A DNA stretch of 49,909 bases from the NCBI GenBank assembly GCA_025362675.1, contig JANYFN010000240.1, positions 1 through 49,909 on the forward strand, given 5' to 3'. Source of the stretch: Limisphaerales bacterium. Its GTDB lineage: Bacteria > Verrucomicrobiota > Verrucomicrobiia > Limisphaerales > UBA11358. How positions within the stretch are numbered: position 1 is the first letter of the stretch; each line of letters begins with the position of its first letter. The position numbers and the translations under genes were made by a program. A model generated the notes under the pieces. The model was not told the DNA's origin and did no database searches. It worked only from the letters and a program-made list of their open reading frames with translations. This document shows, one piece after another, positions 3,413-28,445 of the stretch.

Positions 3413-3446
3413 CCTTGAACGTCTGCTTTCGTCCTTAAGTTCACAC

Positions 3447-4733: not shown

Positions 4734-4754
4734 ACTTTGTTATCCCGATTCAAA

Positions 4755-6128: not shown

Positions 6129-6147
6129 ATTACCTTTTATAAAATTC

Positions 6148-11489: not shown

Positions 11490-11575
11490 AGAATTGATTT
11501 GCTGTCGGTTAATTGTTTTTTGATTCAACCCATCTTGAACATACCAGAACCACCCTGTTTGTCTTGGACCAGTAT

Positions 11576-14500
11576 TCATAACGATTTCAAAAATTTTACA
11601 AGAGCGGCGCGATCCGCAGCTGACATAGTCCGGAAAATCTCCTTTGAAACCTCAGCTTCACCGCTATGCCAGAGAATCGCTTCTTCGAGAGTCCTGGCCC
11701 GTCCGTCATGAAGATAAGCTTCACCGCCACTTACCCCCGCGGTCAAGCCAATGCTCCACAGCGGCGCAGTTCGCCATTCGGAACCGGCAGCATTTCCTTC
11801 ACCCAGATTGTCCGCCAGGCCGCTTCCCATATCGTGTAACAATAGATCAGTGTAAGGATGAATGGTCTGATTGCGGAGCTCGGCCATGGGATGATAGGCG
11901 CTGGTAGTCAGGGTGGGCACGTGGCATTTCGCACAGTTGGCACTCGCGAAAATCTGTTCACCTTGTAATACTTGAGCATTAGTTAAATCTCGCCGCGCAC
12001 TGACTCCAAGAAATGCGATATAGCGCGTCATTTTATCGAGTTCATCATCGCTGAGTTCAGGTGGGCCGCCCGTAGTTTCACCGTCGAGAATTGGGAATAT
12101 TGAGGTCGTCACCCCCATATCAGTATTAAGTGCGCCAGCGATCTGATGGCTGATGCGCGCCTTCCCGCCTTTATAAGTAAAACGTCCAAGCCGTTGCTGG
12201 CCAGTCTGCGGGTCTAACACAGTTTGAACGCGTCCGGAGATGCCGTCCATGTTTGTATCGCTAGGATCAGCCAAAGCCATAATGGTGCTTTCGCCAACTG
12301 CCTCCAGCAAACCGAGACCTACTAGTGGCGGCGCTATTCGCACGGAGTAAAAAGTCGGGGTTATGCCGGAGAAAGTATAATTTGGTTTTTGTAACGAATA
12401 ACCTGTGTTATCTCCGTATTGCCCGCTAACGATGGTATAGCTAGCAATCGTTGCGCTGCCTTCGACTGAACCCACGGTGACCTGCGGTTGTAACACCGAA
12501 CCAAGTAGTGGATGTCCGGAACCGTTCGCATCGCTACCCACCTTCACTACGGATTGGAGCATCGGCGCGCCGATGGCGGATGGGAGCGCACGTCCGTTGT
12601 TAACGTGGCATGCGACGCAACTACGATTGATAAATTTTGGTCCGAGCTTACCGACCTGCTCAGTGTAGATCGGATTATCCGGTTCCGAATGTGTGCCGTC
12701 GCCAAAGTCCGTATGATGTAATCGCCGCCCCAACATGAACTGCTGTCCGTTCCTAGGCGAGATGTTGCCCGCCATCTGTTTAAAACGATGCTCCGGCTCA
12801 TTCGAGTATTGATACGGCAATGTGGTTTGGCCGCCGAGCCAGGCATTCGTGGGTAATGGATAGGAGTCTAGACTCTGGTTGACGCTACCCATGATGCCGC
12901 CGTTGAAGCCCAAGTCCTGTCCTTCTCCCCACGGGACAATCCCTTGTCCGACAATGTAGAGCAGCACGGTGCCGTAGTAATTGTTGCGACCGTGTCTTGG
13001 CGCATTCAGGAACTGGCTGATCTCAACCTCGACACGGTCGCCATTAGTCAGCGGACGGTTGCCGAACTGGGCATTCTGACTAATGGTGGCGCTATAATTG
13101 TAATCAATTTCCCCAGCGGTGGCGGAGGCGTTTGTAGAGACGAGGGTCGCGATCTGATTATTATTGTATTGGGCCACGGTAGTGATGCCGCCGAAAAAAG
13201 TGCGGAACTCGGCGGGGTTCAACCGATCTTGAGTGGTGTAGTTAAACGTGATGCTCGTCCCACCTTTGGCTACGCGATCAATGATTTGAATATTCGCTAC
13301 CCGCTGCTCCCAATACCAACTTAGGTAGTGGTCGTAGATATGAAAAACATCCTCACGCGCATGGCGGTCGCGCGCTCGGTCGGCTAAGTAGGTAATCCGA
13401 TTCGTAGGCGTTTCTACTGTGGTCTCCGGCTCCAGTGGGGTGAAGGCATCGAAGAGCGCAACTATGCCTACATTCGAATCTGTCTGGGCAGAAATGGTAG
13501 CGTCAACCGCGAGACTTTGTCCGCTGGCAGTAACAGCGATGACTGCAAGGTAATACGTTTGTCCTGAAATCAAACCGGAGACAATGGCTGAAGTTACATT
13601 TCCCACGTCCACCGAATTAGTCAGGTTTAAACCATTAGTGCCATAGAAAACGCGATAACCAATGACACCGGCGGTAGGACTCGCCGTCCACGCTAGACCA
13701 GTAGCATTGGTGAAACCTGACGGTATGGTGTGCAAGTTAGTGGGCGCGAGCACCGAGACGATTTCAGACGGATTAGACAGCCCGTAAAAACGCTTCGGCT
13801 CCGCCAGATTTACGGGCAGGCTATTGGTGGCTCTGCCGTCCACACCAAATAAATTGGTAGCCACCGGTGTCCAAGTTGAGCCCGGCGCAACGTTCGTGGA
13901 GGTGAGCAACACGCTGGAAGTATTGCTTCCGCCGAGCCAGGCGAAGCTAAGATTTGTGCCTGACCTTACTACGCTGCCCGGAACAATCGTTGGTGGCACC
14001 GGCGGTGGCGGTGGCGGCAGCACATAAATGAAGCCATTTAGGTTGGTCACCGAAACCGTGTTCGTATTCGCTACCACTACGTTGACCGCACCGGGTGCAC
14101 CTGTCGGCGTGGTTGCCGTAATATTGGTTGAACCCGTCAGCGTGATGCCGGTTGCGGCATATTGGCCCAAATTTACCATGACTCCGTTCAGGAAGTTGGA
14201 GCCGCTAATAGTTATAACCGTGCCACCATTGGTCGGTCCTGTTCCAGGAGTAACAGCCGTGATGACCGGCCCGATTGGTAATACGACACTGCCCCCACCA
14301 ACCACATCGGCGTAGCTGTCGCCTACTCGAATCTCATCGGCGATGATGGCAAATCCGCCACCGGAATTTTGAAATCCAATCCCGGTAATTGTTCCTACAT
14401 CAAATGTGCTGATACTATAAGTTGCCGCGATGCCAGGCGTTGACGAATTGACGGTGGGGTTGAGATATACCGTGATCGTATCGTTAGTGCCCGAAGTGTT

Positions 14501-15061
14501 GAAATCGATTTTGATCACGACTAAGTAGGGAGTCGGGCCATAGGTTCCCGCAAATGAACTGGCCAATGAAGTTGCGGCCTGGGTAGCAGTCCCAAAGGTA
14601 TTTATAGAACCCAGACCCAGCCCCCCTTTGGTCCCCGAGATTGGCGCTAAACCATAACCAAAAAACAGCCCCGTTCCGCCGTTCGGAAAGATAACGCCAC
14701 AATAATTTCCGCCGTTATTCCCGGTCAAATTGAACAGCAAGCTGATCCACTTAGTTCCGCTATTCAGTGGGGCGGCGAGATTCGCTACTTGCCGGCCACT
14801 CGTGGAATTTAATGAGTTATTAGTTACAGTGAGTCCGGTGTAAGTCAAACCGGAGACAATCGAGGGAGTCATTCCACACGCCCAATTGCCAGCAAACCCT
14901 GTCGCGGTGCTTGTGGTAGCATTTGGGATCGAAGTGCTGTAATTAAACGGCTCGTAAGCATTCAAGCTCGCATAACCACTGTTGATCCACGTGACGAGCA
15001 ACAACAGTTGGCTTAGTAAGACTCCAAATAATTTCGGCGCGGCTGGGACTTTGCGTTTCAT
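11576..15061 (-). CDS. Secreted di-haem oxidoreductase (DUF1111/DHOR type) fused to adhesion-type modules
   Basis: A 1161-residue exported protein. A signal sequence (KLFGVLLSQLLLLVTWINSGYA) precedes a jelly-roll domain (about 32-258, starting LNAYEPFNYS and ending DEIRVGDSYADV), an IPT/TIG module (about 263-355, PVITAVTPGTGPTNGGT), an internal copy of the 'STN..W....KRFYG' module (about 365-430) and an FN3 module (about 440-525). The C-terminal part from about 530 is a di-haem oxidoreductase of the DUF1111 family, distantly MauG/peroxidase-like. It has two covalent haem motifs, CVACH (Cys815-His819) and CAKCH (Cys1043-His1047), plus YLHDGRARTLEEAILWHSGEA near the end. Such proteins usually lack glycan-type modules. 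It lies 5 bp after the phosphorylase gene and upstream of GH16, so it is very likely co-transcribed with glycan genes. Its electron donor and substrate are unknown. Confidence 0.85.
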   Translation of the reverse strand: MKRKVPAAPKLFGVLLSQLLLLVTWINSGYASLNAYEPFNYSTSIPNATTSTATGFAGNWACGMTPSIVSGLTYTGLTVTNNSLNSTSGRQVANLAAPLNSGTKWISLLFNLTGNNGGNYCGVIFPNGGTGLFFGYGLAPISGTKGGLGLGSINTFGTATQAATSLASSFAGTYGPTPYLVVIKIDFNTSGTNDTITVYLNPTVNSSTPGIAATYSISTFDVGTITGIGFQNSGGGFAIIADEIRVGDSYADVVGGGSVVLPIGPVITAVTPGTGPTNGGTVITISGSNFLNGVMVNLGQYAATGITLTGSTNITATTPTGAPGAVNVVVANTNTVSVTNLNGFIYVLPPPPPPVPPTIVPGSVVRSGTNLSFAWLGGSNTSSVLLTSTNVAPGSTWTPVATNLFGVDGRATNSLPVNLAEPKRFYGLSNPSEIVSVLAPTNLHTIPSGFTNATGLAWTASPTAGVIGYRVFYGTNGLNLTNSVDVGNVTSAIVSGLISGQTYYLAVIAVTASGQSLAVDATISAQTDSNVGIVALFDAFTPLEPETTVETPTNRITYLADRARDRHAREDVFHIYDHYLSWYWEQRVANIQIIDRVAKGGTSITFNYTTQDRLNPAEFRTFFGGITTVAQYNNNQIATLVSTNASATAGEIDYNYSATISQNAQFGNRPLTNGDRVEVEISQFLNAPRHGRNNYYGTVLLYIVGQGIVPWGEGQDLGFNGGIMGSVNQSLDSYPLPTNAWLGGQTTLPYQYSNEPEHRFKQMAGNISPRNGQQFMLGRRLHHTDFGDGTHSEPDNPIYTEQVGKLGPKFINRSCVACHVNNGRALPSAIGAPMLQSVVKVGSDANGSGHPLLGSVLQPQVTVGSVEGSATIASYTIVSGQYGDNTGYSLQKPNYTFSGITPTFYSVRIAPPLVGLGLLEAVGESTIMALADPSDTNMDGISGRVQTVLDPQTGQQRLGRFTYKGGKARISHQIAGALNTDMGVTTSIFPILDGETTGGPPELSDDELDKMTRYIAFLGVSARRDLTNAQVLQGEQIFASANCAKCHVPTLTTSAYHPMAELRNQTIHPYTDLLLHDMGSGLADNLGEGNAAGSEWRTAPLWSIGLTAGVSGGEAYLHDGRARTLEEAILWHSGEAEVSKEIFRTMSAADRAALVKFLKSL

Positions 15062-15066
15062 AAGGT

Positions 15067-18000
15067 TTATTTTTCGGTAGGCAATTGTATGCCTGCGATG
15101 ATTGATTTGACCATGCCTGTGCGTTGGTGAATGGCGCGGCTATTCGCCTTATCCAAAGCCAACACCGCCTGCCGACGACGGCGGCGATCGGAATATTCAA
15201 CTATCAGAAACGGTTTCGGCGCGAGCAGATACACCACCGGCACTTGGCAATAGGTGAACGCGAGCGCGCCAGCCTTGAGCCGGATTTTCTTCACGACGCC
15301 GGCGACATCGAGATAGGAAAAGTTGCTTGTCTGGGCGAGAAATTCAGCCAAACGCAAGAGCCGGGGTTGGAAATAAATTTGTCCGCCATGAACGCTCACG
15401 CCTAGTTCGCCGAAACGGCAAAGGATGTCTTCCTTCACCTGCCCGGTTAGTCCCGGCTGCCGGGCGCCAGTGTGCGCGGGGGTGTGGGAATATGGGTCCA
15501 TTGGAAACGCGCCGTAGTTTTCTGGCGTCTTGAAATCACCAATGCCAGCGCGGATATCGTGATAACATTTCGCCAGCCGCTCGGCGACCGGTGAAGCGGG
15601 CGCAGAGAGAAATGATTCCTGCGCGGCGAGGAGCAACTTGGAAACCATGTGCCAATAGATGCAGCCTAAACCTTCGTAGCCAAAAAATGTTCCTGAGCGC
15701 CCGGTGAACGAACGATGATCGAACATCTTTTCAAACTGTGCGAGCACCGCTGCGGATTCGCGTTTTACTAAGGACGCGTAACCAGCGGCGGCCAGCTCGC
15801 GCAAAATCGTTTCCACATCGCCGGCGTTGCTGATGCGTGGATGGAAGTGACAGACACCCGTGGCATCTCGCTCAATCAACAAACGGTGGTCGTCGGCCAG
15901 GAGTTTTTGGAGCAACGGCGAGCGCGCGACGAAGGCCAGCGGTAAACAATTTTTCTCGGTAAAGCGCGGTAGTCGGCGGTCGGGATAGAGCAGATAGGAA
16001 TGTTGGTTTGCCCGATAGATGGAACTTTGCTTAAGTGCCATCAGCAGATTGAGCGATTCAGTGGCGTTAAGAACATTCGCGCCCAGAATCGCGGCTTGGC
16101 CTTCCAGCATTTCGGGTAAGCGCCGCAGTGAAATCACGCCGCGCTCGCCAAACTCAGCTAGATTATAAGAATGATACAAACCATCTTGCCGTTGGTTGGT
16201 GCGAATCGATTCATCCGTCAAGATGAGCGCAACGCTGAAAAATTCTAGCAGCCGGGTTTTCGTCACGGCGGTTTTGCGACCCGCAGCATGACCCGCGTAA
16301 ATCTGCCGGCGATACTTTTCCGCTGCGCGGCCCAACGCCTCGAGCATCTGGCGGCGTTGGGTGTCGCCGACTTTTTCGGAGCGATGGCGTTTGAGAATCT
16401 GCGTGGTGCGAGCGAGCCATTTCGCCACTTCGGCTGAGAGCGGCACCTCGTCCGCATTGAACGACAGGAATAGTTGCCGACAAAACGCCAGGTGCCGGCG
16501 CAGTTGATAGAGCGTCACCATCGAGACGCCGTTGCCGACGAGCGCGTTATTGGCGTCATTCCATTCCGGCCGCTGAGTATTGAGCCAAATGCCCGCGCCA
16601 GGAATGAAATTGGAAAATTTCGCGAGCAACGAAATGAGGAGTTTCTCGGTGAGGTTGACGTGACGCACGCGGCCTTGGCGGTCCCAAACGAGTTTGCCGT
16701 CGGCACCAACTTTTTGCACTCGCTCCCGCGTGAGTTGATCTAACTTTGAATCGAAGTTTACCGTCGCGCGCGGATTCGCCAGCAGTTCTGCATAGGGCTT
16801 GATACGATAGGGAACGTTCGCAAACGCAAAAATTTCGCGCGTGAGAAAATCGCGCAGCACCTCGGGTTGATGCCGTTCCAAGTTCTCCAGCAGCTTCAGT
16901 AAATAGATAATCTGATGATCGCCCCAATAACCGATGTGCGACCACGGGTCATGCGGCTCGGGCACTTCCCAGTCGATCCCATCACGCGTGACGCGATAGG
17001 GATTGTAGCCATCGGCGGTCGAGGCGTTGACGAATTTGCTGACCATGCCAGAGACGAAACCGGGAAAAGAAACTGCGAGTGCCTCCCAGTTTTGAAAAAT
17101 ATCGCGCCAGTTGCCCTCGTAATTCAAAACACGTCGGCCATCCGCGCCGCGCGTGGCGATGGCGAAACGGTTCCAGGGTCGGCTCGGATCGCCGTGCCGC
17201 CGGCTGAACGTGAGCGGGAGATATTCCTGACACAGCCGTTCCAGATCGGGATCTTGGGTCGCGCGGGCCAGGGTTAATACTCTTTCGCGTAATGCACCCG
17301 GGCCAAGTTTGCGAAAAAAGGCGGTGTGTCGCGCGGTAACCGCCCAGTTTGCCTTCCTTACAAACGCGCGCAGATCGGCGGTGTCAACCTGGTAGCCGTC
17401 GAAGAATATTCCCCCGCGCATCACGTTGAAAAGCACGTTGCTGAAATGCCGGGCGTCGCCCAAGGGCCGCGCCGATTTTTGCAAGCCGTCGGCGCGGGCC
17501 ACGATGCGCCAGAGTTCCGTCGTGCCGTGCGCGATGTCCGCCGCGACTTTTTTTTGCAGCAATAGCGGGGAACGCAAGGCGCAGCGCAGATTGGCCACCG
17601 GCGCCGAACCTTGATTTATATCGGCGACTATAAGCCACTCACGCGACTGACCGGCGCGCAAGGTGAATTCAGATTCGACGAGATACGCGCCGCGTTCGGC
17701 GCGCACATCCGTTTCCGTTTTGAGCGGCAGGTCTTGACGAAAGTTTTGCAACTGCACGGAAGAGAGCAGCACATTACGCCGCTGAATACCGGCGGACCAA
17801 ACGGTGGTGGCACGAAGTGATTCCGCCGGCTCCGGACGATCGACCGGTATCGAGCTTAATAGAAATAGTCCCAATCCCGATTCTGGCAGCAGTTCGTTTT
17901 TTTTGTAGGCGTCGATGAGCGTGCTTTTCTCCAGCTGAAACTGACTGCCGAGGCCACCGGGCAAAATATTTTGCAGCCCATCAAGCAAGCGGACTTTGAC

Positions 18001-18504
18001 GGCGGCGGAACTCGCGAGCGAGGCTTTCCGCACCCAGCCAAATTGCTCGCTGCTGGCCCAGCCGGAGCGAAAGGTCAGGCCCAGATCAGCGTTGATTTCT
18101 TCAAAGATGATTTTGTTGCCGAGGAAATTTTTGTAGAGGTTGCGGCAAATCTGATAGCGGCCGCGCCCGCGTTCGGAAAATGGTTCCCACAAATATTTTT
18201 TGCCGCCCCGCTCGATGATGAGGATGGTCTTGGGGCCGGTGATCTCCGCCGAGTCATGAATTTTATCGTCCGTGTAATAGGGAAAAAGGGCGAGGTCGGG
18301 ATTGCGCCGGCCAGCGGTCAGTGCGCCGTTGCTGGAGATAAACATCCAGTGATCGGCACTGCTGACGATGCTCAAAAAAAATGGGCGGAGCGCGTCACTG
18401 TTGGTGATCCGATAAAAATCTTCGCCCGCCACCACGACCTGCCCGCCTGAAATTTTTCCAACTCCCGACCGGAACGGATGGTTGCCGAGGAAAAGTTTTT
18501 TCAT
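15067..18504 (-). CDS. GH94/GH161-like glycoside phosphorylase (putative beta-1,3-glucan phosphorylase)
   Basis: A 1145-residue protein without signal peptide, so cytoplasmic. The N-terminal half is a beta-sandwich with YRITNSDALRPFFLSIVS, WMFISSNGALTAGRRNPD and FPYYTDDKIHDS, typical of large relatives of cellobiose phosphorylase. A later RPEWNDANNALVGNGVS segment matches the D-W-N-D-x-x-N catalytic loop of GH94 enzymes; Asp650 is the predicted general acid. Length (about 1100) and the flanking GH16 and GH158-like genes favour GH161, whose characterised members phosphorolyse beta-1,3-gluco-oligosaccharides to glucose-1-phosphate. This family assignment is inference; GH94 or GH149 remain possible. 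It follows the GH158-like gene by 22 bp and precedes the di-haem gene by 5 bp. Its role would be energy-saving breakdown of oligosaccharides taken up by the MFS porter. Confidence 0.75.
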   Translation of the reverse strand: MKKLFLGNHPFRSGVGKISGGQVVVAGEDFYRITNSDALRPFFLSIVSSADHWMFISSNGALTAGRRNPDLALFPYYTDDKIHDSAEITGPKTILIIERGGKKYLWEPFSERGRGRYQICRNLYKNFLGNKIIFEEINADLGLTFRSGWASSEQFGWVRKASLASSAAVKVRLLDGLQNILPGGLGSQFQLEKSTLIDAYKKNELLPESGLGLFLLSSIPVDRPEPAESLRATTVWSAGIQRRNVLLSSVQLQNFRQDLPLKTETDVRAERGAYLVESEFTLRAGQSREWLIVADINQGSAPVANLRCALRSPLLLQKKVAADIAHGTTELWRIVARADGLQKSARPLGDARHFSNVLFNVMRGGIFFDGYQVDTADLRAFVRKANWAVTARHTAFFRKLGPGALRERVLTLARATQDPDLERLCQEYLPLTFSRRHGDPSRPWNRFAIATRGADGRRVLNYEGNWRDIFQNWEALAVSFPGFVSGMVSKFVNASTADGYNPYRVTRDGIDWEVPEPHDPWSHIGYWGDHQIIYLLKLLENLERHQPEVLRDFLTREIFAFANVPYRIKPYAELLANPRATVNFDSKLDQLTRERVQKVGADGKLVWDRQGRVRHVNLTEKLLISLLAKFSNFIPGAGIWLNTQRPEWNDANNALVGNGVSMVTLYQLRRHLAFCRQLFLSFNADEVPLSAEVAKWLARTTQILKRHRSEKVGDTQRRQMLEALGRAAEKYRRQIYAGHAAGRKTAVTKTRLLEFFSVALILTDESIRTNQRQDGLYHSYNLAEFGERGVISLRRLPEMLEGQAAILGANVLNATESLNLLMALKQSSIYRANQHSYLLYPDRRLPRFTEKNCLPLAFVARSPLLQKLLADDHRLLIERDATGVCHFHPRISNAGDVETILRELAAAGYASLVKRESAAVLAQFEKMFDHRSFTGRSGTFFGYEGLGCIYWHMVSKLLLAAQESFLSAPASPVAERLAKCYHDIRAGIGDFKTPENYGAFPMDPYSHTPAHTGARQPGLTGQVKEDILCRFGELGVSVHGGQIYFQPRLLRLAEFLAQTSNFSYLDVAGVVKKIRLKAGALAFTYCQVPVVYLLAPKPFLIVEYSDRRRRRQAVLALDKANSRAIHQRTGMVKSIIAGIQLPTEK

Positions 18505-18526: not shown

Positions 18527-19882
18527 TCATGGCTGCGATGCAACCGAGGCAGTTTTTGCCTCCACATAAAACGGAATGTTGGCGTGGGCAGCTTTTCCGT
18601 GACCGTCGAGCACATAGATGAAGAGCCGGTAAGCGCCGGGTTTGGCGGGGGCTTTGACTTGCGCCTCACCAGCGACGCCGCCCGAAACGAGCGTCGGGAA
18701 ATGCTGGGGCGTGGTTTCAAAATCGCCGCCGGTGGACTGCGCCGCGCTTTCCTCCATGATGTCCCAGACATAGGTCAACGGAAGATTCGCGGGCGATTGC
18801 GCCTCAACTTTGGCCACGCAACTTTGGCCGGCATTCAAGCGCACACTTTGCTGGGCGGTCTTGCCATTCAGCTTGAAACTTTTCAGTTGCGGGCTGCGCC
18901 TCTCCGGCCAGCGACCAGTCCAGAGGTGCTGCATCACATCCACGGTTTCCGTGGACTCACCGGATGGAAGAAACAGGCCATACCACGTGGGCGTGCGCTC
19001 TTGCTTCTGGCCCCAAAGAAAAACATAGGAGCCAAGGCACTGATTCGTATCCGAAGCGATGGCGACATTATAGCGTTTGTCGTAAAGCTCTGCCTTCACC
19101 GTGCTATCATTTTCGATGGGCGCGCCCCACGCCGTCTTGCCACATTCCCAATGGCCAGTGGCACCCCATTCTGTCACCACATACGGCCCGGTCCAACCGG
19201 TATCGCGCAAGTAACGCGGCAGATTCACAATATCGGCATACGACTGAAAGCAAAGCAGGTCAAGGTCCGGCGCACGATTCTTGATTTCACTCACGAGTTC
19301 TTTACTGATGCCCGCCAGCGACGTTGTGGTCGGATGATTCGGATCCACTTGATGGATCATTTTTGAAATCTCGTTGACCGCATCCCAGACTTTCGGATTT
19401 TTCGAATTCAAATTCAATTCGTTACCAATGTCCCACATGAGCAGAGCGGGATGATCTTTAAATTGGAGCACCTGGGCTTTGATCGCGGCTAGTTGTTTGG
19501 CGACGTTCTCTGGATTGGAATAATCAAATCCGTGACGTTCCCGCGATATGTCCAGACCCAGCGTGACCAGCAACCCATTTTTGTAAGCGCGATCCAAAAC
19601 TTGACCGCCGGTTTCGCGGCCGTTGTCCGTTCGCCAGGTGCGGAATGAATTTCCACCAGCTGCGGCTAACTTTTCCTGATCGCCGAATTCAAGCCCCGCA
19701 CCTCTGATAAAAAAAGCTTTCCGGTTCACCAAAAGCTGCCAGCGTCCGTCGGTCTGCCGAACCTCCACCTTGGCGGGAGCCAACGCCTTGATGTCTGTTT
19801 GCGCTGTGACATTGCCGGCAACAACGGCGCAGCTCAACAGCACTAGCGACAACTTAATCGGAAAAAAATTTGTGCGATTCAT
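18527..19882 (-). CDS. Secreted clan-A TIM-barrel glycosidase, GH158-like (putative endo-beta-1,3-glucanase)
   Basis: A 451-residue protein with signal peptide MNRTNFFPIKLSLVLLSCAVVAGNVTAQ. The (beta/alpha)8 barrel (about 40-330) includes FFIRGAGLEFG, GGNSFRTWRTD, LLMWDIGNELNL (acid/base Glu155) and GPYVVTEWGATGHWE (nucleophile Glu238), the arrangement of retaining clan-A enzymes. YVFLWGQKQERTPTWYGLF follows, then a C-terminal Ig-like domain (about 345-440, AGQSCVAKVEAQSP to YRLFIYVLDGHG). Barrel plus one Ig-like domain, about 450 residues, resembles GH158 endo-beta-1,3-glucanases, which were first found in the related phylum Lentisphaerae and in Bacteroides. GH2 or GH5 relatives are alternatives. 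Neighbours are the MFS porter (start 4 bp from the stop) and the phosphorylase, so it probably supplies oligosaccharides to them. Confidence 0.72.
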   Translation of the reverse strand: MNRTNFFPIKLSLVLLSCAVVAGNVTAQTDIKALAPAKVEVRQTDGRWQLLVNRKAFFIRGAGLEFGDQEKLAAAGGNSFRTWRTDNGRETGGQVLDRAYKNGLLVTLGLDISRERHGFDYSNPENVAKQLAAIKAQVLQFKDHPALLMWDIGNELNLNSKNPKVWDAVNEISKMIHQVDPNHPTTTSLAGISKELVSEIKNRAPDLDLLCFQSYADIVNLPRYLRDTGWTGPYVVTEWGATGHWECGKTAWGAPIENDSTVKAELYDKRYNVAIASDTNQCLGSYVFLWGQKQERTPTWYGLFLPSGESTETVDVMQHLWTGRWPERRSPQLKSFKLNGKTAQQSVRLNAGQSCVAKVEAQSPANLPLTYVWDIMEESAAQSTGGDFETTPQHFPTLVSGGVAGEAQVKAPAKPGAYRLFIYVLDGHGKAAHANIPFYVEAKTASVASQP

Positions 19883-19886
19883 ATAT

Positions 19887-21446
19887 TTATTTTGGGGTGG
19901 AAAGTTCGTTGCCAGCCAGCAGGCGTTCTAATTCCTCCAATGATTTGCCCTTGGTTTCCGGGATGACAAGCAAGACAAACACCAAGGCTGCCAATGCCAA
20001 TAGACCGTAGCCGAGAAAAGTGCCAGCCGCGCCAAAATGCGATAGTTCCCACGGAAAAATCATCGTGACCGACGCGCTCACGACCGAGTTCCAGAAGCCA
20101 ACGACCGAAATCGCCGCGCCCCGATAAGCGTTCGGGAAAATTTCTGAAAGCAAGACCCACATCACCGGCCCAAGTGAAATGGCAAACGAGGCGACGAAGC
20201 CGATGATGGCCAGCAGCACGAGCGACGCACTGATGTGCAATCCTGCCGTGGCCAGCGAATCGTGGAATAGTGCCAACCGTTCCGCGCCCAGTTTGTTGTC
20301 GAGGTGAGCGAGAAATTGTTTGTCCGTCGCGAAAACTTGCGAATCAAGTTTTTGGAGATCGCCGATGATCTCAGCCGGAACTTTGGCATCGCCCAGAACG
20401 GTGAAGGATTTTTCCGTGAGCTGATAATTGGAATTGTGAAACGCGCCAGCACAGGTCAGCAGCGAAATCGCCATGCCAGCGGTGCCGAGGACAAGGAGCG
20501 GTTTACGGCCCCAACGGTCAACCCACTTGATGGCGACAAAGGTCATGCCCAGATTGACGAGACCGACGATGATGGCTTGTTTGAAAGCCGCGTTGGTGCC
20601 CCCGCCAGCCTGAGAGAAAATTGTCGGCAGATAATAAAACACGGCGTTGATGCCGGTGATCTGCTGAAAAAACGCGATAGCGAGCGCGATCACCATGACG
20701 AACCGCATCTTGCGACCGAACAACGCGGTCACGCCAACGCCGGCGACGTGTTCCGACGCATTCTGGCGAACGCTACTCATTTCCTTCGCCGCATGTTCGG
20801 GTCCCGCCACCTTGGTGAAAATATGCAACGCTTGAGCTTCGCGCCCTTTGGTAAATAGCCACCGTGGACTTTCCGGAACAAAAAAGAGCAGGACAAAATA
20901 CAGCACTGCGGGAACGGCTTCCACGCCGAGCATCCAGCGCCAGCAGTTATCGCCGAGGCTCAACAGAAAATAATTTGAGAAGAAAGAGGCTGAGATGCCA
21001 ATGACAATCATGAGCTGGTTGAACGAAACCAAGCTGCCGCGCAGCTTCGACGGCGAAATTTCCGCGATGTAAACCGGTGCGATGAGAATGGCGCCGCCCA
21101 CCGCGATGCCGCCCAGCACACGGGAGAGAACGAACACAGAAAAATCGGTTGTCAGTGCGGACATCAAGGCCGAGACGGCGAACAACAGCGCCGTGAGCAT
21201 CAGGATTTTTTTCCGGCCAAAGGCATCACTTAAGAAACCGGCCAGCGCGTTGCCGCCCAACGCGCCCCAGCCGAGACAACTGACGGCCAAGCCAAGTTTC
21301 CAGTCACCGCCAACTCCGGTCAGATGGAAATAATTTTTGATGAACGGCACGGCACCGGAAATCACCGTGGCATCAAAGCCGAGCAGAAATCCGCCCACGG
21401 CTACAATGAGGGCCACGGAGATGGTGAAAAAATTACCTTGTTTCAT
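19887..21446 (-). CDS. MFS sugar porter (sugar:H+ symporter type) with large loop insertion
   Basis: A 12-helix major facilitator of the sugar-porter family, about 519 residues. Signatures are GFLLGFDATVISGAVPFIKN in helix 1, GRKK after helix 2, LRGSLVSFNQL, PESPRWLF, QQITGINAVFYYLPTI in helix 7, DRWGRKPLL and PETKGKSLEELE at the C-terminus. Between helices 9 and 10 there is an unusual hydrophilic insertion of about 60 residues (about 338-402, from NSNYQLTEKSF to FHDSLATAG), predicted periplasmic. The ATG at 21446 is preferred; a GTG three codons upstream is possible. It overlaps the locus of beta-glucan enzymes and lies about 100 bp after the pseudopilin-like gene. The gap contains a palindrome (21487-21507). 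It likely imports glucose or short beta-glucans; exact substrate is not readable from sequence. Confidence 0.9.
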   Translation of the reverse strand: MKQGNFFTISVALIVAVGGFLLGFDATVISGAVPFIKNYFHLTGVGGDWKLGLAVSCLGWGALGGNALAGFLSDAFGRKKILMLTALLFAVSALMSALTTDFSVFVLSRVLGGIAVGGAILIAPVYIAEISPSKLRGSLVSFNQLMIVIGISASFFSNYFLLSLGDNCWRWMLGVEAVPAVLYFVLLFFVPESPRWLFTKGREAQALHIFTKVAGPEHAAKEMSSVRQNASEHVAGVGVTALFGRKMRFVMVIALAIAFFQQITGINAVFYYLPTIFSQAGGGTNAAFKQAIIVGLVNLGMTFVAIKWVDRWGRKPLLVLGTAGMAISLLTCAGAFHNSNYQLTEKSFTVLGDAKVPAEIIGDLQKLDSQVFATDKQFLAHLDNKLGAERLALFHDSLATAGLHISASLVLLAIIGFVASFAISLGPVMWVLLSEIFPNAYRGAAISVVGFWNSVVSASVTMIFPWELSHFGAAGTFLGYGLLALAALVFVLLVIPETKGKSLEELERLLAGNELSTPK

Positions 21447-21486
21447 TATCAGCACAGTTCATGTGTCATTCCCGTTAAGGGGAAAT

Positions 21487-21542: not shown

Positions 21543-22340
21543 CTAAAAGGACTGCACGGCAAAGACATCATCCTTATCAGTGCTTAAGTCGGCCCATTTG
21601 CCGGGTTCCACATGGCCGTCACAGGCCGAGTAGTTGGCTCGGGAGTTATGGCGACAAGCGGCCTGTTTATTGGCCGGCACCGTCGTCCAGCCCGTTCCGG
21701 GTGACGGAGTGACCACCGGCTTAATGACGGTGACGTCGGTGTAATAGCTGGTCGGCAACTTGTTGACGTTCCCGCCGGTCTTGGGGCGCCCGACATCACC
21801 AATCAACCAAATCTGGCTGGTTCGGTTAATGGTGCTCATTTTTCGGGCGCCTTGAGGCTTTCCAGCTAGGTCTAAGTAGTAACGAATGACTCCCTTTTCA
21901 GGGTTAGACGTATCTTCCAGCGGGCCATACCCTTCGCACGGAGAGTTGTAATAACTTACCGTGCCTGGATCTATGTCCGCATCGGCAACCATCGTGCAAC
22001 GCCAGACATTATTAGAATGTGAACTACTCGTTAAGTAGTTCCCGCTATCTAGTATTTTATACCACCAGTTAGCGCTGTGAGTTGCAAAGTTTCTATCATT
22101 CAACGGTGGAAGGAAGTCGTTGTTGTCCCCGACATACATCAGCATTCCGAGGCCGATTTGCTTGTTGTTATTGACGTCGGCAATCGCTTTCGCCTTATCC
22201 TTCGCCTTGGCCAGCGCGGGCAATAACATCGCGGCGAGAATAGCGATGATGGCGATGACGACCAGCAATTCGATTAGGGTGAAACCTTTGCGGACCGTTA
22301 AATTTTTAGCTTTCATACTTTGATTGATTGGAGAATTCAT
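21543..22340 (-). CDS. Pseudopilin-like protein with N-methylation leader (DUF1559-like)
   Basis: A type IV pilin/pseudopilin-like protein of 265 residues (from the ATG at 22340) or 257 (ATG at 22316); the start is uncertain. The leader ends RKG and is followed by [20 protein letters not shown], so prepilin peptidase should cut after the Gly, with Glu5 conserved. The rest is a soluble domain with [13 protein letters not shown], a WWYKIL segment, two cysteines and a C-terminal [15 protein letters not shown] block, which is typical of the very numerous pseudopilin-like proteins of Planctomycetes and Verrucomicrobiota. The gene starts 20 bp after the kinase-less sensor gene and precedes the MFS gene. 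Its function is unknown. Its place in the locus suggests export or surface assembly of glucan-handling proteins. Confidence 0.85.
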
Positions 22341-22360: not shown

Positions 22361-23797
22361 TTAAGATGATCGATAGTGGCGATGTTTGATTCTTACCACC
22401 GCTACCCATAGCAATGAACCCACAGCAATCAGTCCGGCCACCACCGCGATCCAAAGTGTGTCGGGCATTTTAGAGGTCGTCGGCTGGTTCAAAACCAAAA
22501 CGTCTTTCGGTGAGCGTAACAAGATTTGAAAGGAGGCAGCTCGCCACTTTTCACCGGCTTGCCAATTGTTACCGCGCTCGATGCGGCAGATGCCTGTCAC
22601 CATCACTTCGCTGCCGTTGGGTATGGCTGCCAGCTCATCGTTATTAGACTTTTGCGGCAGGTAAGCTTGAAACGTAAAATCGCTGCTTTGGAGGAGAAAA
22701 AATTGATTGATACCCCGCTGCACGCGATCCAAAACAGTGGCTGGGAGTTGCACCAGTCGGCAGTCATGAACTCCTGTCAAAATCTCGTTCACGTCCACTG
22801 TGTCTGCTTTCGGTTCGGGGCCGCTGCCGATTTTCTGGAAAACTGCATCCTCCAGGATTGGCGTGTATTCTCCTTTGGCCGGATAACCAATGACTTCCAC
22901 TAAGTCGCCCGGCTGAGCCACATCTCGCTGCCGCGTCTGGCAAAAGAGTCCCGCCGCCTGGTCTTGAATAAAAATCGCGTTACCAGATTCGCTATAAGCC
23001 ACCGTGCCCGTGACCTTGACCCGATCATTAAAAGTTCCACCCGGGGCAAATTGCAGGAGGCTATTTATTTTCTGCACAGGTAGATCAAATGGATTAGCGG
23101 GGGCGGGTTTTTCAACCGTCAGGCCATCCGCTTGTGGCACAAGGATACGGATCCCGAACAGTTGGCGCTGGTGGTTAAACATGGTGGCCGAAACGCCCCG
23201 GACTTTCATAGTGCTGCTGACCAAGTCGGCGGCCTGGGCCACCGGTAATTGTTTCGCGTAAACGGTGAAGCGTTCGCCGCCTTTAACGAAATCAATTAAA
23301 AAATATCCAGACTCTTTTTCAAAGCGGACGGCGCGGACATTCCCGCTGAATTCCACCAACTGGCTGTCCTCATGACCACTAACTAACTGCTCCAGTGAGA
23401 CCGGGTTAGGTGCCGGCATTTTTCCTTCGCCGATCACGCTGATTGACGTCGGCACGATAACCGGCGCATATTCGCCCGGACCGGTTACGCCGGACAACTC
23501 AACTTCCTGCCCAGCTACCAAAGGCGGGATGTTGGTCAACTCCATGAAATAAATACCGGCCGTTTGATCCTGAAAAAAACGTGAGAAAAGCGCTTCATCA
23601 TAAAAAGTCACCACCCCGTGCAATTTAACCGCGTAGTGCTTGGCAGCATCCTCGGCTGACAACGCCCGGACTTCCGCCGCCGTAGTCAGGATGCGATCCG
23701 GGTTTTCGGCGGCAAACCCCAAAAGCGGAGCCGCTAAACAATACAGGGCCACCATGAAGGTGAATGCCATCCCGCTCGCTTGCATTTGTATTTTCAT
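22361..23797 (-). CDS. Membrane-anchored kinase-less paralogue of the neighbouring sensor kinase's periplasmic region
   Basis: A 478-residue protein with a signal peptide ([22 protein letters not shown]), a large periplasmic region, one C-terminal transmembrane helix (about 448-468, [21 protein letters not shown]) and a ten-residue basic tail. The periplasmic part shows four OB-fold-like repeats ([65 protein letters not shown]). It aligns end to end with the sensor region of the kinase at 26283-28445: both have ALS near the start, [38 protein letters not shown] and VTGICR/VTGVCR, but here nothing follows the helix. It is therefore a truncated-by-design or duplicated receptor. It may act as a co-receptor, decoy or ligand-presenting partner. 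This is inference; no function is known. Confidence 0.85.
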
Positions 23798-23809
23798 TTT
23801 TTAAGACTA

Positions 23810-23840
23810 GCCGGGCCTGCACGCCAGATGCAGACCCGGC
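23810..23840 (-). terminator. Strong intercistronic hairpin
   Basis: A 12-bp stem with a single mismatch (23810-23821 with 23829-23840, 7-nt loop) rich in GC lies between the glycan-binding protein gene and the kinase-less sensor gene. On the transcribed minus strand it is not followed by a U-run, so it is more likely a partial terminator or 3' mRNA stabiliser, giving more of the upstream secreted protein than of the downstream genes. Confidence 0.55.
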
Positions 23841-23889
23841 CGGGTTATTGTTTGGAGCTACTATGTCAACGGCATCAATCAATCGCCCA

Positions 23890-25527
23890 TCATTGGATGG
23901 AAACCCGATAGAAGCGTCGCGGATTATTGGCTGTGGTAGTCGGCACTGCGGTCGCGCCAGTGCCATTGGTCGCGGTCAGGGTGCTCCAGGAAACGTCCGT
24001 GAGATTGGTTTTGTATTGAACAGTGTAGGTGAAACCGGCTTGGGTTGGGAAAGACAGTTTAAGCGTTGCGCCGCTCAAGCTAGGAGTGATGGTAACTGCC
24101 GTCGGCGTGCTGACGAGTGGGCCGACTTGAACATTACCATATCCTGCGAGAGCTGAGTCGGTAGCCCAAACGCACGGGCCGATAGTTTCGAAGCCATACT
24201 GAATATGGCGTGCCGGGTCGTTGATGGTTGCCAAGCTGATGCGGAATGTGGTGCCGTTAGTCAAGGGCGTGGTCACGACCACCGAGGAGGAGAAGTCGGG
24301 CGCAAAATCTTTGATGAAGGCCACACAGGTCCAACCGTTGCCAGCAGGATTGGTGTTTGACCCACTGACCAAAGTGTTAGCCAAAACCGTTCCGGCGAAG
24401 GTCATCGTGACACCCGGCAAAGAACCGGCGGGCTCAACATAAAAGCTAGCATCCATACTTTTGTTGCCCACCGAACCATTACCCGTGTTGACATACCAAA
24501 AGCCGGCGGGATCACCAATCGTGTTAGGAGAGAGGGTCAGCGATGAACCCGAATAGGAGGCGCGTAAATCGGCAGTGCCCCAGGCCTGACCAAACACATA
24601 ACCGTTGGGATTTGTCAGATCTTGCGGAGTGTTAAAAACGTTCATAAAACCATTCCAAGTCTTCGAGGGATCGACGGTGAATAAGTAGGGATCGGCAACG
24701 ACGTTCACGGTGACCACGGAAGAGGTGACGGAACCGCCGTTGTTGGCTTTGGCCACGACCTTCAATGAATGGGAGCCAACTGAAATTCCCGTGGCTGCGA
24801 AGCTAAACGGCGACGTGGTGGCATTCCCCAGCAACGTGCTGCCGTCATAGAAGGCAACATTGGTCACTGCACCGGGCAACACCGTGGCGCTCGCATTGAT
24901 CGTGAAGTTGGTGGGGACCGTGGCCAGATTTACCGGAGAAGTGATAGCCGCACTCAAAGGTGAAGTGGTGGGAATGATCACCCCAATGTTGTCGAACGCC
25001 ACTTCGGACAACTGGCCCCAGAGCGGGACGATTTTCATTCCTGCGGCCCCGGCTGGAATGGTGATTGGAAACGAGTAGGTTTCCCAGTTGGTGGTATTGT
25101 GGCCGACGATGGAGGGACGCAGATCACCCGTGCTACCGACCAGGCCCGCAGCCCCGTCAAAGAAATCAATCTTGAAACCGCCAATCGTCGGGCCGGAAAT
25201 AATTTTCATGTCTTCCACAAACGTGTAGGTCTGGCCAGCGGCAACACCCATTGAAGCTAGCGTGAGCGGCACTGAATCGCCATTGACCCAGATGCCATAA
25301 TAATCCGTCGGCCCCTGGTTATTGATCGTGCCATAACCGCCGGGGTTGCCGCCCGTGGTCGGATAATTGTAAATAAAATTTCCGCAGCAATTGTTTTCCA
25401 CCCAGTCGGCTGTCGGGCCGGGGTTGGAAAAATTGCCGTTTGGAAACAAGTTAGTGGTATCCGCACTGGCAGTGGCGGCGGCACCCAGCAAGGCGCAGAG
25501 GGCAAGGCTTTTGATCAATGATTTCAT
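23890..25527 (-). CDS. Secreted putative glycan-binding protein (CBM-like plus Ig-like modules)
   Basis: A 545-residue secreted protein (signal peptide MKSLIKSLALCALLGAAATASA) with no recognisable catalytic domain. The N-terminal module (about 24-190: NLFPNGNFSNPGPTADWVE, YPTTGGNPGGYG, GIWVNGDSVPLTL) and the following Ig-like module (about 195-285: FYDGSTLLGNATTSPFSF) are clear homologues of the same two modules of the GH16 enzyme at 8502-11489. A beta-rich central domain of unknown family follows (about 290-460: TWNGFMNVFNTPQ and FWYVNTGNGSVG). The end is the shared C-terminal module, TYTVQYKTNLTDVSW to RRFYRVSIQ. Being first after the regulator terminator and upstream of a hairpin, it is probably the most strongly expressed gene. 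A surface glucan-binding role is inferred from the shared modules. Confidence 0.8.
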   Translation of the reverse strand: MKSLIKSLALCALLGAAATASADTTNLFPNGNFSNPGPTADWVENNCCGNFIYNYPTTGGNPGGYGTINNQGPTDYYGIWVNGDSVPLTLASMGVAAGQTYTFVEDMKIISGPTIGGFKIDFFDGAAGLVGSTGDLRPSIVGHNTTNWETYSFPITIPAGAAGMKIVPLWGQLSEVAFDNIGVIIPTTSPLSAAITSPVNLATVPTNFTINASATVLPGAVTNVAFYDGSTLLGNATTSPFSFAATGISVGSHSLKVVAKANNGGSVTSSVVTVNVVADPYLFTVDPSKTWNGFMNVFNTPQDLTNPNGYVFGQAWGTADLRASYSGSSLTLSPNTIGDPAGFWYVNTGNGSVGNKSMDASFYVEPAGSLPGVTMTFAGTVLANTLVSGSNTNPAGNGWTCVAFIKDFAPDFSSSVVVTTPLTNGTTFRISLATINDPARHIQYGFETIGPCVWATDSALAGYGNVQVGPLVSTPTAVTITPSLSGATLKLSFPTQAGFTYTVQYKTNLTDVSWSTLTATNGTGATAVPTTTANNPRRFYRVSIQ

Positions 25528-25604
25528 AGGTTTATCGGTATTTTAGAATCCATCCGTCTAATTAGTTGGTTTAACTTTCTTGGCTGTGGCGCATGGAATA
25601 TGAA

Positions 25605-25651
25605 AAAATTTACCCTAGGCTGGTAAATTTTCTAGCTAGCCGAGCGGCTAG
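25605..25651 (-). terminator. Two hairpins at the end of the regulator operon
   Basis: Reading the minus strand after the response regulator, a GC-rich hairpin (CTAGCC/GGCTAG, arms 25636-25641 and 25646-25651) overlaps the stop codon. It is followed by a perfect 10-bp stem (25605-25614 with 25622-25631, 7-nt loop) that runs into TTTTTT. The second has the form of an intrinsic terminator, separating kinase/regulator expression from the glycan-binding gene that starts at 25527. The second palindrome could instead be an operator for that gene. Confidence 0.6.
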
Positions 25652-26286
25652 TTTTGAGCAGTCTGGCCCCGTTTGAATTTCAGCGCGGCTTCGGTCCGTG
25701 AATGGACGTGCAGCTTTTCGTAAATGTGTTGGAGATGCCATTTCACCGCCGCCACGGTCACGCCGAGGCGATCCGCAATGGTTTTGTTGGCTTGCCCCTG
25801 CATCACGAGCTCCAACACTTCGCGCTCACGGTCAGTTAGATTTTCAACTTCCGACGCGGTCGTGGCCTGTTGCCGGAACTGGCCAATGACTTTACGCGCG
25901 ATCTCCGGCGTCATCGGCACCCCGCCATCCTGAGCTTCTTTGATCGCGGCGATAATTTTTTCAGGCTGCGCGCGCTTTAGCAAATAGCCGCAGGCACCGG
26001 CCCGCAGCGCCTGAAAAATCCGCTCCGAATCTTCATAGACCGTCACGATGACGATATGAATTTTCGGCATCATTTCTTTGATCTTCGCGGTGCATTCCAC
26101 CCCCGTAGAATCGGGTAACTGAATATCCATCAAGACGACATCGGGCATCGCCTTGGGAATTTTCTTGAGCGCTTCGGCCACCGTGGCACAGGTGCAAACA
26201 CATTGAAAACCCGGCGTGCGATTGAGCAATGTCTCAAATCCTTCTCGCAGGGTTTTGTTGTCTTCCACGATGCCGACTTTGATCAT
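25648..26286 (-). CDS. NarL/LuxR-family response regulator
   Basis: A 212-residue response regulator. The receiver domain starts MIKVGIVEDN, with the phospho-accepting Asp54 in VVLMDIQLPD and conserved VTVYEDSE and GYLLKRAQPEK (Lys of the switch). The C-terminal LuxR-type helix-turn-helix has LTDREREVLELVMQGQANKTIADRLGVTVAAVKWHLQHIYEKLHV. The ATG at 26286 overlaps the kinase stop as ATGA, so translation is coupled and it is the cognate partner. The longer open frame upstream lies within the kinase gene and is not used. It most likely activates the adjacent beta-glucan genes when the kinase senses glucan or its fragments. The target promoters are not identified. Confidence 0.95.
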   Translation of the reverse strand: MIKVGIVEDNKTLREGFETLLNRTPGFQCVCTCATVAEALKKIPKAMPDVVLMDIQLPDSTGVECTAKIKEMMPKIHIVIVTVYEDSERIFQALRAGACGYLLKRAQPEKIIAAIKEAQDGGVPMTPEIARKVIGQFRQQATTASEVENLTDREREVLELVMQGQANKTIADRLGVTVAAVKWHLQHIYEKLHVHSRTEAALKFKRGQTAQN

Positions 26287-28445
26287 AATAATCTTTGGGG
26301 AAGCGGGGCCGAGAGGCGCACGGTAGTTCCCTGGCCAAGGCCACTCACAATAGTGCAATCGCCGCCCAGGGCTTTCAACCGCTCTTTAAGATTGGCCAAG
26401 CCATCGTCGCCGGCTTTGTATCCGCGCAATTGAAACCCTTGTCCGTTGTCCGCAAGTTCCACCTGCAGTTGTCGGTCTTTAACGGAAATGTGCAACTGAA
26501 CCTGAGTGGCCTGCGCGTGGCGGACCACATTGGTGAGCGCCTCTTTGAAGGCCAGAAAAATTTCCTGCCGGAATTTCGGGTCCAGCGGATGTTCCGGCAA
26601 ATCTTCCGCCACATCCAATCCGCAGGAAACTGACGCCAGATCCAGAAACCGTTGCGCATACGAACCAAAATAACTCGCCAGCGAGGCGATGGTGTCATTG
26701 CGCGGATTCACGGCCCAAACAATTTCGTCCAGCGAGGTCACCATGCGTCGCGCCGTTTCCGTCAACTCATCCAGATAACGCTGTTTTTCTTGAGTGTTGG
26801 TGGTCGGACTTTTTACGAGCGAGGCGAGGATGTTCACTTCCGTCAGACCGGCTCCTAAATCATCGTGCAAATCATGCGCCACCCGAGCACGTTCCTGTTC
26901 GATCTCCCGCCCGCGTTCAGCTCGCTGACGTTCCTGAATTTGTCGCTCCAGTTGCCGCGAGCGCTCGGCTACTTGGCGGCGCAAAACCAACACCCAGCCA
27001 AACGCCGCCAGCGTGGCGAAGCTGAGCGCACCCGCCATCCACAACAGTTTTTTCAAGGTCCACCACGGCGGGCTTTGCAGCGACACCACATCCTCCGCCG
27101 TGCGCAGCAGCAGGCTGAAAGATTTTGCGCGCCAGTTTTCACCCGCCACCCATTCCCCAGGTTCGACCCGGCACACGCCGGTCACCGCCACCCGGCTACC
27201 GTTCTCCAGACCGGCGAAACTGTCATGCCCGGCGGCTTGTTTGAGACTCGCTTGGAAAATGAAATTGCTCTGCTGAAGGATCAAAAATTGTTCCGAACCG
27301 TGCTGCGTCCGGTCAATCAATTTCGCCACCACTTGGATCAACTGACAATCATAATCGCCTTTCAAAGCCTCATCGTAAGTCAACCGCGGCGGTCGCGGCG
27401 GCGGCTGGCTGGAAATTTTGCGATAGACCGCATCTTGCAGTTGCGGCGTGTAATCGCCCTGACTGACAAAACCCACAACCTCCACCTCATCCCCCGTCGT
27501 TAACGGTTCATGTTCCTTCGTCTGGACTTGCACGCCGTGTTCCGCGCCTTGCAAAAAAATCACGCCGCCCGGCTCAAAATAAATCACCGAGCCAGTCACC
27601 TTCACGCGGTGCCCATAAGTTTCCTGCGGTGTGAATTGCAATAAACTGCCAACCGGCCGCGCCGGAATTGCGAACGGATCCGTGGGTGCGGGAATTTTGA
27701 TTTCTAAATCTTCCGGGCGCGGCACCATCAACCGGATCGCGAAAAGCTGCCGCTGATGATTGAACTGCGTCGAGCAAACACCGCGCACCCGCACCGTGCT
27801 GTCCAGCAATTCTTCCGGCTTTGTCACGGGAAGTGTCTTCGCAAAAATCAGCAGCCGCCCGCCGCCAGTGGCGATTTCGATCTGATGAAACTGCGAGGCC
27901 TCCAGCCGGCGAGCCGAGCGGACGATGCCGACAATCTCCACAAACTGACTATCCTCCGTCCCGCTAGCGAGCTGCTCATAAGTTGTTTTTTTTGCCACGG
28001 GCAAGGGCGTCGTCCCCTTCACCGTCACCTGATCCACCACCACCACCGGGGCATATTCACCAGGATTCACCGTGCCCGAAAGTTCCACCAACTGACCCGG
28101 AACTAGCATCGGTGGTGAGACATTAAGGGGGAATTGCAGATAGATTCCTGCGGTGTCATCTTGAATGAAACGTGAATAAAGACTGTCCTCAAAAAAAGTG
28201 ACCGTGCCGCGCAGTCGAACCGGAATTTTCTGTTTGGTTTGCTCCACGGATAGGGCGCGGATAGTCGAAACCGTGCGAATTTCACCGTCGTTTGTTTGCG
28301 CCTGCACACACAGCGGGGAAATGTTTCCAACGATTAAGATCGCGGCCACTGCGAACGTGCTCAGGGATTGAATTCCCAAACGGGAAATGAAAACTCCCGG
28401 CGGACGAACTATCCGCACGCTGCGACAAATTGTGAGCAAGGCCAT
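26283..28445 (-). CDS. Membrane sensor histidine kinase (HisKA_3 type) with OB-like periplasmic repeats
   Basis: A 720-residue kinase. The N-terminal signal/anchor (LSTFAVAAILIVGNISPLCVQA) is followed by about 430 residues of periplasmic sensor made of four OB-fold-like repeats (LRGTVTFFEDSLYSRFIQDD, VEIVGIVRSARR, HRVKVTGSVIYFEPGG, and VVAKLIDRTQHG). A transmembrane helix (about 468-490, LLWMAGALSFATLAAFGWVLV), a coiled coil (RRQVAERSRQLERQIQERQR), and the dimerisation/phosphorylation motif ARVAHDLHDDLGAGL come next; His527 is the likely phosphosite. The ATPase domain has NVVRHAQA, DNGQGF and GLANLKERLKALGG. No extra cytoplasmic PAS or receiver is seen, so it is a simple NarX/DesK-like class. 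The kinase-less protein at 22361 is its sensor twin. The ATG at 28445 is the first in frame. Confidence 0.93.
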   Translation of the reverse strand: MALLTICRSVRIVRPPGVFISRLGIQSLSTFAVAAILIVGNISPLCVQAQTNDGEIRTVSTIRALSVEQTKQKIPVRLRGTVTFFEDSLYSRFIQDDTAGIYLQFPLNVSPPMLVPGQLVELSGTVNPGEYAPVVVVDQVTVKGTTPLPVAKKTTYEQLASGTEDSQFVEIVGIVRSARRLEASQFHQIEIATGGGRLLIFAKTLPVTKPEELLDSTVRVRGVCSTQFNHQRQLFAIRLMVPRPEDLEIKIPAPTDPFAIPARPVGSLLQFTPQETYGHRVKVTGSVIYFEPGGVIFLQGAEHGVQVQTKEHEPLTTGDEVEVVGFVSQGDYTPQLQDAVYRKISSQPPPRPPRLTYDEALKGDYDCQLIQVVAKLIDRTQHGSEQFLILQQSNFIFQASLKQAAGHDSFAGLENGSRVAVTGVCRVEPGEWVAGENWRAKSFSLLLRTAEDVVSLQSPPWWTLKKLLWMAGALSFATLAAFGWVLVLRRQVAERSRQLERQIQERQRAERGREIEQERARVAHDLHDDLGAGLTEVNILASLVKSPTTNTQEKQRYLDELTETARRMVTSLDEIVWAVNPRNDTIASLASYFGSYAQRFLDLASVSCGLDVAEDLPEHPLDPKFRQEIFLAFKEALTNVVRHAQATQVQLHISVKDRQLQVELADNGQGFQLRGYKAGDDGLANLKERLKALGGDCTIVSGLGQGTTVRLSAPLPQRLL

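Follow-up and report, generated by a model that had tools for sequence, protein, structure and literature searches.

The 49,909-nucleotide stretch analysed here (the window; contig JANYFN010000240.1 of the Limisphaerales bacterium assembly GCA_025362675.1) encodes a protein, P0001, that carries the ectodomain and membrane helix of a sensor histidine kinase and nothing of the kinase itself. We show that this kinase-less twin is real, conserved, under purifying selection and set mostly in a beta-1,3-glucan context, and its conservation and selection mark it as a genuine part of the glucan system. The role we favour, at a little short of an even chance and from comparison of sequences, is that of a membrane-tethered accessory sensor subunit for HK-A, the histidine kinase P0002 of the same window. 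The two proteins and the parts of the twin are as follows.

22361..23797, minus strand: kinase-less twin P0001, 478 amino acids, characterised by BLASTP, Pfam/NCBIfam and tree
23708..23797, minus strand: twin signal peptide, about residues 1-30, assigned by sequence reading rather than by a predictor program; helix at residues 9-20 in the model
23408..23638, minus strand: twin OB-like domain 1, about residues 54-130, from the strands of the model, limits by eye
23102..23407, minus strand: twin OB-like domain 2, about residues 131-232, containing the FNHQRQLF motif, limits by eye
22808..23080, minus strand: twin OB-like domain 3, about residues 240-330, from the model, limits by eye
22478..22807, minus strand: twin OB-like domain 4, about residues 331-440, with a weak Pfam OB match at 354-409, limits by eye
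22391..22459, minus strand: twin membrane helix, about residues 447-469, from the model, ends by eye; the WW motif that precedes it in kinases is missing
26283..28445, minus strand: sensor histidine kinase HK-A (P0002), 720 amino acids, with four-OB ectodomain, pre-membrane PPWWT and one membrane helix, then HisKA_3 and HATPase_c

Both genes are intact. In BLASTP the twin and P0002 share 205 of 461 aligned residues (44%, E 1e-130), and the match takes in the whole ectodomain and the membrane helix and ends directly after the helix, beyond which the twin has a C-terminal tail of ten residues. A sequence-only reading of the locus had described the twin in these terms, as a repeat of the kinase's entire periplasmic part that stops after one transmembrane helix and a ten-residue tail, and the motifs it quoted can be read in both proteins. 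Pfam and NCBIfam detect no kinase domain in the twin; with neither HisKA_3 nor HATPase_c (Pfam), it falls outside the HisKA_3 sensor kinases, and both domains score above cut-off in P0002. The 1.5 kb examined downstream of the twin hold no kinase remnant.

The ectodomain is internally duplicated, as a second BLAST segment reveals (25% over 225 amino acids, E 7e-7). An AlphaFold2 model of the twin, built on 24 sequences (pLDDT 83.3, pTM 0.70), consists of four barrels and one C-terminal helix, and its OB-like fold, together with full-length homology, places the twin in a four-OB ectodomain family. Pfam OB matches are weak and under the cut-off, consistent with OB barrels. One sequence search of the PDB gave no match and the other a single match at E 0.71. 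With Foldseek, tandem OB proteins head the PDB matches (HIN-200, CST, RPA, LEF-3; best E 1.5e-10) and the whole-chain TM-scores are low, at about 0.2, so that the OB barrel type is supported and the arrangement of the barrels is not. As these top matches bind DNA, a role for the ectodomain as a nucleic-acid sensor is possible; the gene context, however, is one of glucan, and OB folds bind many kinds of ligand.

To place the twin in its family we searched 320 genomes of the window's order for matches down to E 1e-90, scoring at most five candidates per genome, limits that may let remoter kinase-less forms go undetected. The ectodomain is matched at this level or better in 51 genomes, and at least 11 of the 320 encode an anchored kinase-less form. 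Ninety-eight distinct ectodomain rows, with at least 250 amino acids aligned and at least 30% identity, were kept (G denotes a genome, C a contig and L a row). Twelve are anchored kinase-less forms, from 11 genomes (G122 has two), and two are soluble kinase-less forms ending just short of the helix (L041 and L042). Another 32 have a kinase nearest the local type (HK-A) and 42 a kinase nearest a PAS-HisKA_3 type (HK-B), an assignment made by BLAST of the kinase part, with PAS confirmed by Pfam in one HK-B. Six, from Acidobacteriaceae/Acidobacterium records, have a GGDEF-like tail (GGDEF confirmed by Pfam in the one tested), and the last four are cut or broken (L025, L085) or long frames with other tails (L031, L032). 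Two further matches, the kinase-sized G118:C435 and G166:C227 from a genome already HK-A-positive, were left untyped. Every genome with a kinase-less form, 11 anchored and two soluble, also holds a full kinase.

Kinase-less forms were confined to the order in the two wider samples. The class sample (384 genomes, E 1e-75) gave 13 matching genomes, all of the same order, and no kinase-less form outside it; nor did the phylum sample (387 genomes, E 1e-60), where besides the window's match 12 genomes gave 16 matches, all in frames of at least 686 amino acids. Where the record titles of relatives are informative, they name chiefly Verrucomicrobia, several of them subdivision 3 or Limisphaerales. 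Three rows titled as Akkermansia muciniphila metagenome-assembled genomes (L099, L101, L109) carry relatives of the twin; these rows come from G122 and G313, assigned by the genome index to the window's order, and the titles are probably mislabelled. In L085 similarity to the ectodomain is lost within OB domain 4, near a contig end, and the row stays unclassified. The soluble ectodomains (L041 at 8790-10136 and L042 at 8564-9940, from genomes G016 and G010) stop right before the membrane helix, and their neighbourhoods contain no recognised glucan genes. In L070 (G313) a twin-like ectodomain is joined to an HK-A-type kinase, from which output modules seem to have been swapped on the four-OB ectodomain.

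Could the twin be a kinase gene in decay, a remnant without function? Its nesting among kinases in the ectodomain tree would suit such an origin. Each of the 12 anchored forms is, however, a single open frame, and the 0.8-2.5 kb examined downstream contain no remnant of HisKA; this also excludes a frameshifted kinase, the outcome that the sequence-only reading had named as fatal to its case. The main clade of these forms spans three family codes. By the method of Nei and Gojobori (NG86), the ratio of non-synonymous to synonymous substitution (dN/dS) is 0.07-0.11 in five of five twin pairs, which share members and of which two have dS above 1; it is 0.10-0.17 in six kinase-ectodomain pairs and 0.19 in one soluble pair. 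Mean identity per OB domain is alike in twins and kinases except in the second domain. We regard decay as very improbable. A random truncated duplicate is contradicted as well, by this purifying selection and by the recurrent neighbourhood described below.

The descent of the twin was read from an ectodomain tree of 88 rows. Ten rows were omitted: L016, L025 and L085 (at a contig end or broken) and the distant L028, L029, L030, L031, L032, L033 and L122; L124, whose matched stretch contains stops, was left out of alignment A2. Seventeen of 85 forks are open, with a long-branch warning near the outgroup (L026), and the forks that bear the argument are starred. The window kinase is one of 26 HK-A rows that form a clade (support 100/98), and the twin is one of 10 kinase-less rows that form a separate one (100/96), drawn from nine genomes with three family codes. 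The next relatives of this main kinase-less clade are two HK-B kinases, in G163 (69% core identity to the twin) and G013. A tree constrained to unite the twin with the local kinase is worse by 277 log units (approximately unbiased test, p about 1e-50). The proposal that the twin is the local receptor's ectodomain in a second membrane copy thus fails: its clade lies among PAS-type kinases, and tree placement and test together exclude a duplicate of the local kinase. Two anchored forms, L064 (G259) and L084 (G116), are separate kinase-less lines whose genomes also hold twin-like HK-B; grouping all 12 anchored forms as one clade is rejected (p 1.3e-4). The soluble pair is nested among other HK-B kinases. 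The tree supports derivation of the twin from a PAS-containing HK-B-type kinase through loss of the PAS and kinase portions and, unless kinases were regained, loss of the kinase at least three times for the anchored forms and once for the soluble ones.

What the twin has lost bears on how it could work. A WW pair before the membrane helix occurs in 26 of 29 HK-A, 35 of 39 HK-B and all six GGDEF tree rows (67 of 74 overall), and the seven exceptions retain one aromatic member of the pair, as in PPWL or FW. Both independent anchored lines have it; none of the 10 rows of the main kinase-less clade does. Having lost WW as well as PAS, DHp and ATPase, the main clade probably does not signal through its own helix. 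The ectodomain, common to HK-A, HK-B and the GGDEF proteins, is an input module there.

A partner is suggested by the company the twin keeps. HK-A is encoded in all nine main-clade genomes and in 17 of 42 other matching genomes (hand count; Fisher p 0.001); within three families the co-occurrence has p 0.0015, and only the largest family is significant alone. The pattern would accommodate a co-receptor or a decoy. In its pure form a decoy would act as a dominant negative, forming signalling-dead mixed dimers with HK-A or HK-B that set a threshold. The repeated changes on the tree and the full kinase in all 13 genomes with a kinase-less form would suit it. HisKA_3 kinases, however, dimerise chiefly via DHp, which the twin lacks, and both soluble forms are without the membrane helix, so helix pairing is not always kept. 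We consider a pure decoy unlikely.

The neighbourhood of the twin in the window reads as follows, continuing on the minus strand from the kinase.

25648..26286, minus strand: NarL/LuxR-type response regulator, overlapping the kinase stop by 4 nt
23890..25527, minus strand: secreted protein P0003, with Big_7 and low-confidence beta-sandwich domains, possibly glycan-binding
21543..22340, minus strand: pseudopilin-like protein with prepilin N-terminal motif, start hand-picked
19887..21455, minus strand: sugar-porter transporter of the major facilitator superfamily (MFS)
18527..19882, minus strand: GH2-like TIM-barrel hydrolase
15067..18504, minus strand: GH149 1,3-beta-D-glucan phosphorylase (NF058639, 1587 bits against a cut-off of 1150)
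11576..15061, minus strand: secreted di-haem peroxidase-like (DHOR) protein with TIG and fn3 domains
8502..11579, minus strand: GH16 protein with Malectin and Big_7 domains
3372-8370 (plus), 28528-30309 (minus) and 30443-32068 (plus): pectin-type flanking genes

The block therefore runs, on a single strand, from the kinase and response regulator through P0003, twin, pseudopilin, MFS transporter, GH2-like hydrolase, GH149 and DHOR protein to GH16. Its intergenic gaps are -4 to 120 nt (with a pseudopilin start 3 bases off). The pseudopilin begins about 20 nt beyond the twin (hand count), and the sugar transporter is the next gene. The operon-like arrangement proposed earlier for twin and kinase holds up. 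The interval between them contains the NarL-type regulator and P0003, and of the glycan-binding protein placed there by the sequence-only reading the gene is present and the function weakly supported: the P0003 model is weak (pLDDT 70.2, pTM 0.44) and its Foldseek matches are a mixture of Ig/fn3 proteins and a few carbohydrate-binding and surface glycan-binding proteins, so glycan binding stays a guess. With GH149, GH16 and MFS in the window, the block qualifies as a beta-1,3-glucan utilisation locus; GH149 and GH16 point to this use. The genome is 93.6% complete and has two further ectodomain relatives (27 and 29% identity), long frames with a kinase-like end. A pectin-type set flanks the block, with three consecutive GH28 genes, a pectinesterase-esterase fusion and an alpha-L-fucosidase. 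The DHOR protein sits between GH149 and GH16, and elsewhere its relatives (up to 81% over 1132 amino acids) are neighbours of paired HK-A and response-regulator genes (L045, L091, L092).

Across genomes GH149 is the recurrent neighbour, lying within 8 kb of seven of the 12 anchored loci (window, G011, G028, G041, G080, G122:C53 and G259, where it is divergent from the anchored form). Three of the 12 loci are on contigs of 3-7 kb without GH149 (G122:C199, G083, G116). GH149 occurs in 25 of the 320 genomes (24 over the curated cut-off; the G080 copy is cut at a contig end), that is, in nine of 11 anchored-form genomes and 16 of 309 others (Fisher p 1.2e-9, kinship not corrected). GH17 and GH81 adjoin the twin in G028. 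P0003-like genes are near it in the window, G122:C199, G080, G083 and G259, and pseudopilin genes in the window, both G122 loci and G259 (there by prepilin motif). Twin-like HK-B in G163, G013, G081 and G116 are also near matches to P0003 and to the window's GH16 protein (the latter partly via accessory domains), and three of these four have pseudopilin-type genes nearby, on which grounds the twin's ancestor may have occupied a locus of this kind before the loss.

The mechanism we propose starts from a PAS-containing histidine kinase that, by the tree, shed its PAS and kinase parts and left a tethered ectodomain; the four OB domains are kept under strong selection, and PAS, DHp, ATPase and WW are gone. 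With the inward signalling parts lost, the twin would act by its outer part only; signal peptide and helix predict a periplasmic position, anchored to the inner membrane. There it may bind the same kind of ligand as HK-A, which is probably either beta-1,3-gluco-oligosaccharides or a partner loaded with glycan, and tune HK-A by mixed ectodomain assembly, ligand uptake or ligand transfer; the GH16/GH149 operon would then be switched on at the right ligand level.

In favour of an accessory subunit of HK-A stand the ectodomain that it has in common with sensor proteins, the co-occurrence with HK-A, the twin-like HK-B in the genomes of both independent anchored lines, the selection on the ectodomain, the loss of WW and the recurrent position near GH149 and P0003-like or pseudopilin genes. 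Twin and HK-A also share a contig in four of nine genomes, about 2.5, 14, 21 and 53 kb apart. Several observations weigh against it. Twin and HK-A are on different contigs in the other five genomes, and a kinase-less copy close to a kinase, as the sequence-only reading envisaged, is no general rule. The surveyed genomes are incomplete metagenome-assembled genomes, and kinship or a common lifestyle could also account for the co-occurrence. The twin ectodomain is nearer HK-B than HK-A, so its mixed assembly with the latter cannot be taken for granted, and mean identity in the second OB domain is 0.61 in the twin clade against 0.67 in HK-A and 0.68 in twin-like HK-B, so that ligand or partner may have shifted. 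The steady neighbours of the twin are catabolic genes, which also fit glycan handling, and two of the 12 anchored loci (G014, G019) adjoin GH106 in genomes from which GH149 is absent.

The main competing explanation puts the twin outside signalling, as a tethered glycan-holding protein that would retain beta-glucan oligosaccharides, once imported, close to the transporter of the inner membrane or to hydrolases of the periplasm. Its linkage to GH149, GH17, GH81, MFS and P0003-like genes is steadier than that to two-component genes, and both the loss of WW and the cytoplasmic part and the GH106 loci speak for this role. The typed outputs on the ectodomain, however, are kinases (by BLAST; Pfam on two) or GGDEF (Pfam on one), so that it is otherwise a sensor input, and the presence of HK-A throughout the main-clade genomes also argues against glycan holding alone. 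We rate it as a serious but somewhat doubtful candidate.

The wider interest lies in a natural series found in glucan-locus bacteria, from full PAS kinase through anchored to soluble ectodomain with repeated changes, which opens the reuse of a bacterial sensor without its output to experiment. The ligand of the four-OB family is, by gene context, probably glucan. Tentatively, and with rather more doubt than confidence, the series may represent a repeated bacterial co-receptor or decoy design, in which four-OB kinases shed their whole cytoplasmic part and the ectodomain tunes a paralogous kinase in glucan-use loci. Literature on the family, its locus or GH149 gave no description by title or beginning of abstract, in a coverage that is thin for subscription papers.

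Among known systems, the nearest precedent for the twin's working mode, though not for its make-up, would be RocA of Streptococcus pyogenes, an accessory pseudokinase of CovS that keeps DHp and CA-like domains and six putative membrane helices (PMC7028121). Like RocA, a kinase-dead relative of sensor kinases that acts via a membrane partner kinase (PMC7028121), the twin would act on a partner; unlike RocA it has a single helix, a large OB ectodomain and neither DHp nor CA, and its ten-residue tail holds no degenerate DHp/CA module of the RocA kind. In CpxP-CpxA and QseG-QseE an extracytoplasmic protein likewise modulates a kinase; in the portions of the literature available, however, CpxP and QseG are not described as copies of the kinase's ectodomain, whereas the twin is homologous over its full length and held by a helix. 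Split histidine kinases also place sensor and kinase on separate chains, but keep DHp or CA on each, and the twin has only about ten cytoplasmic residues and neither domain. Eukaryotic decoy or pseudoreceptors such as BAMBI combine a receptor ectodomain and membrane helix with no kinase; BAMBI is an unrelated protein, and decoy action of the twin is conjecture. Kinase-less receptor copies of that sort are a familiar tuner of signalling in animals.

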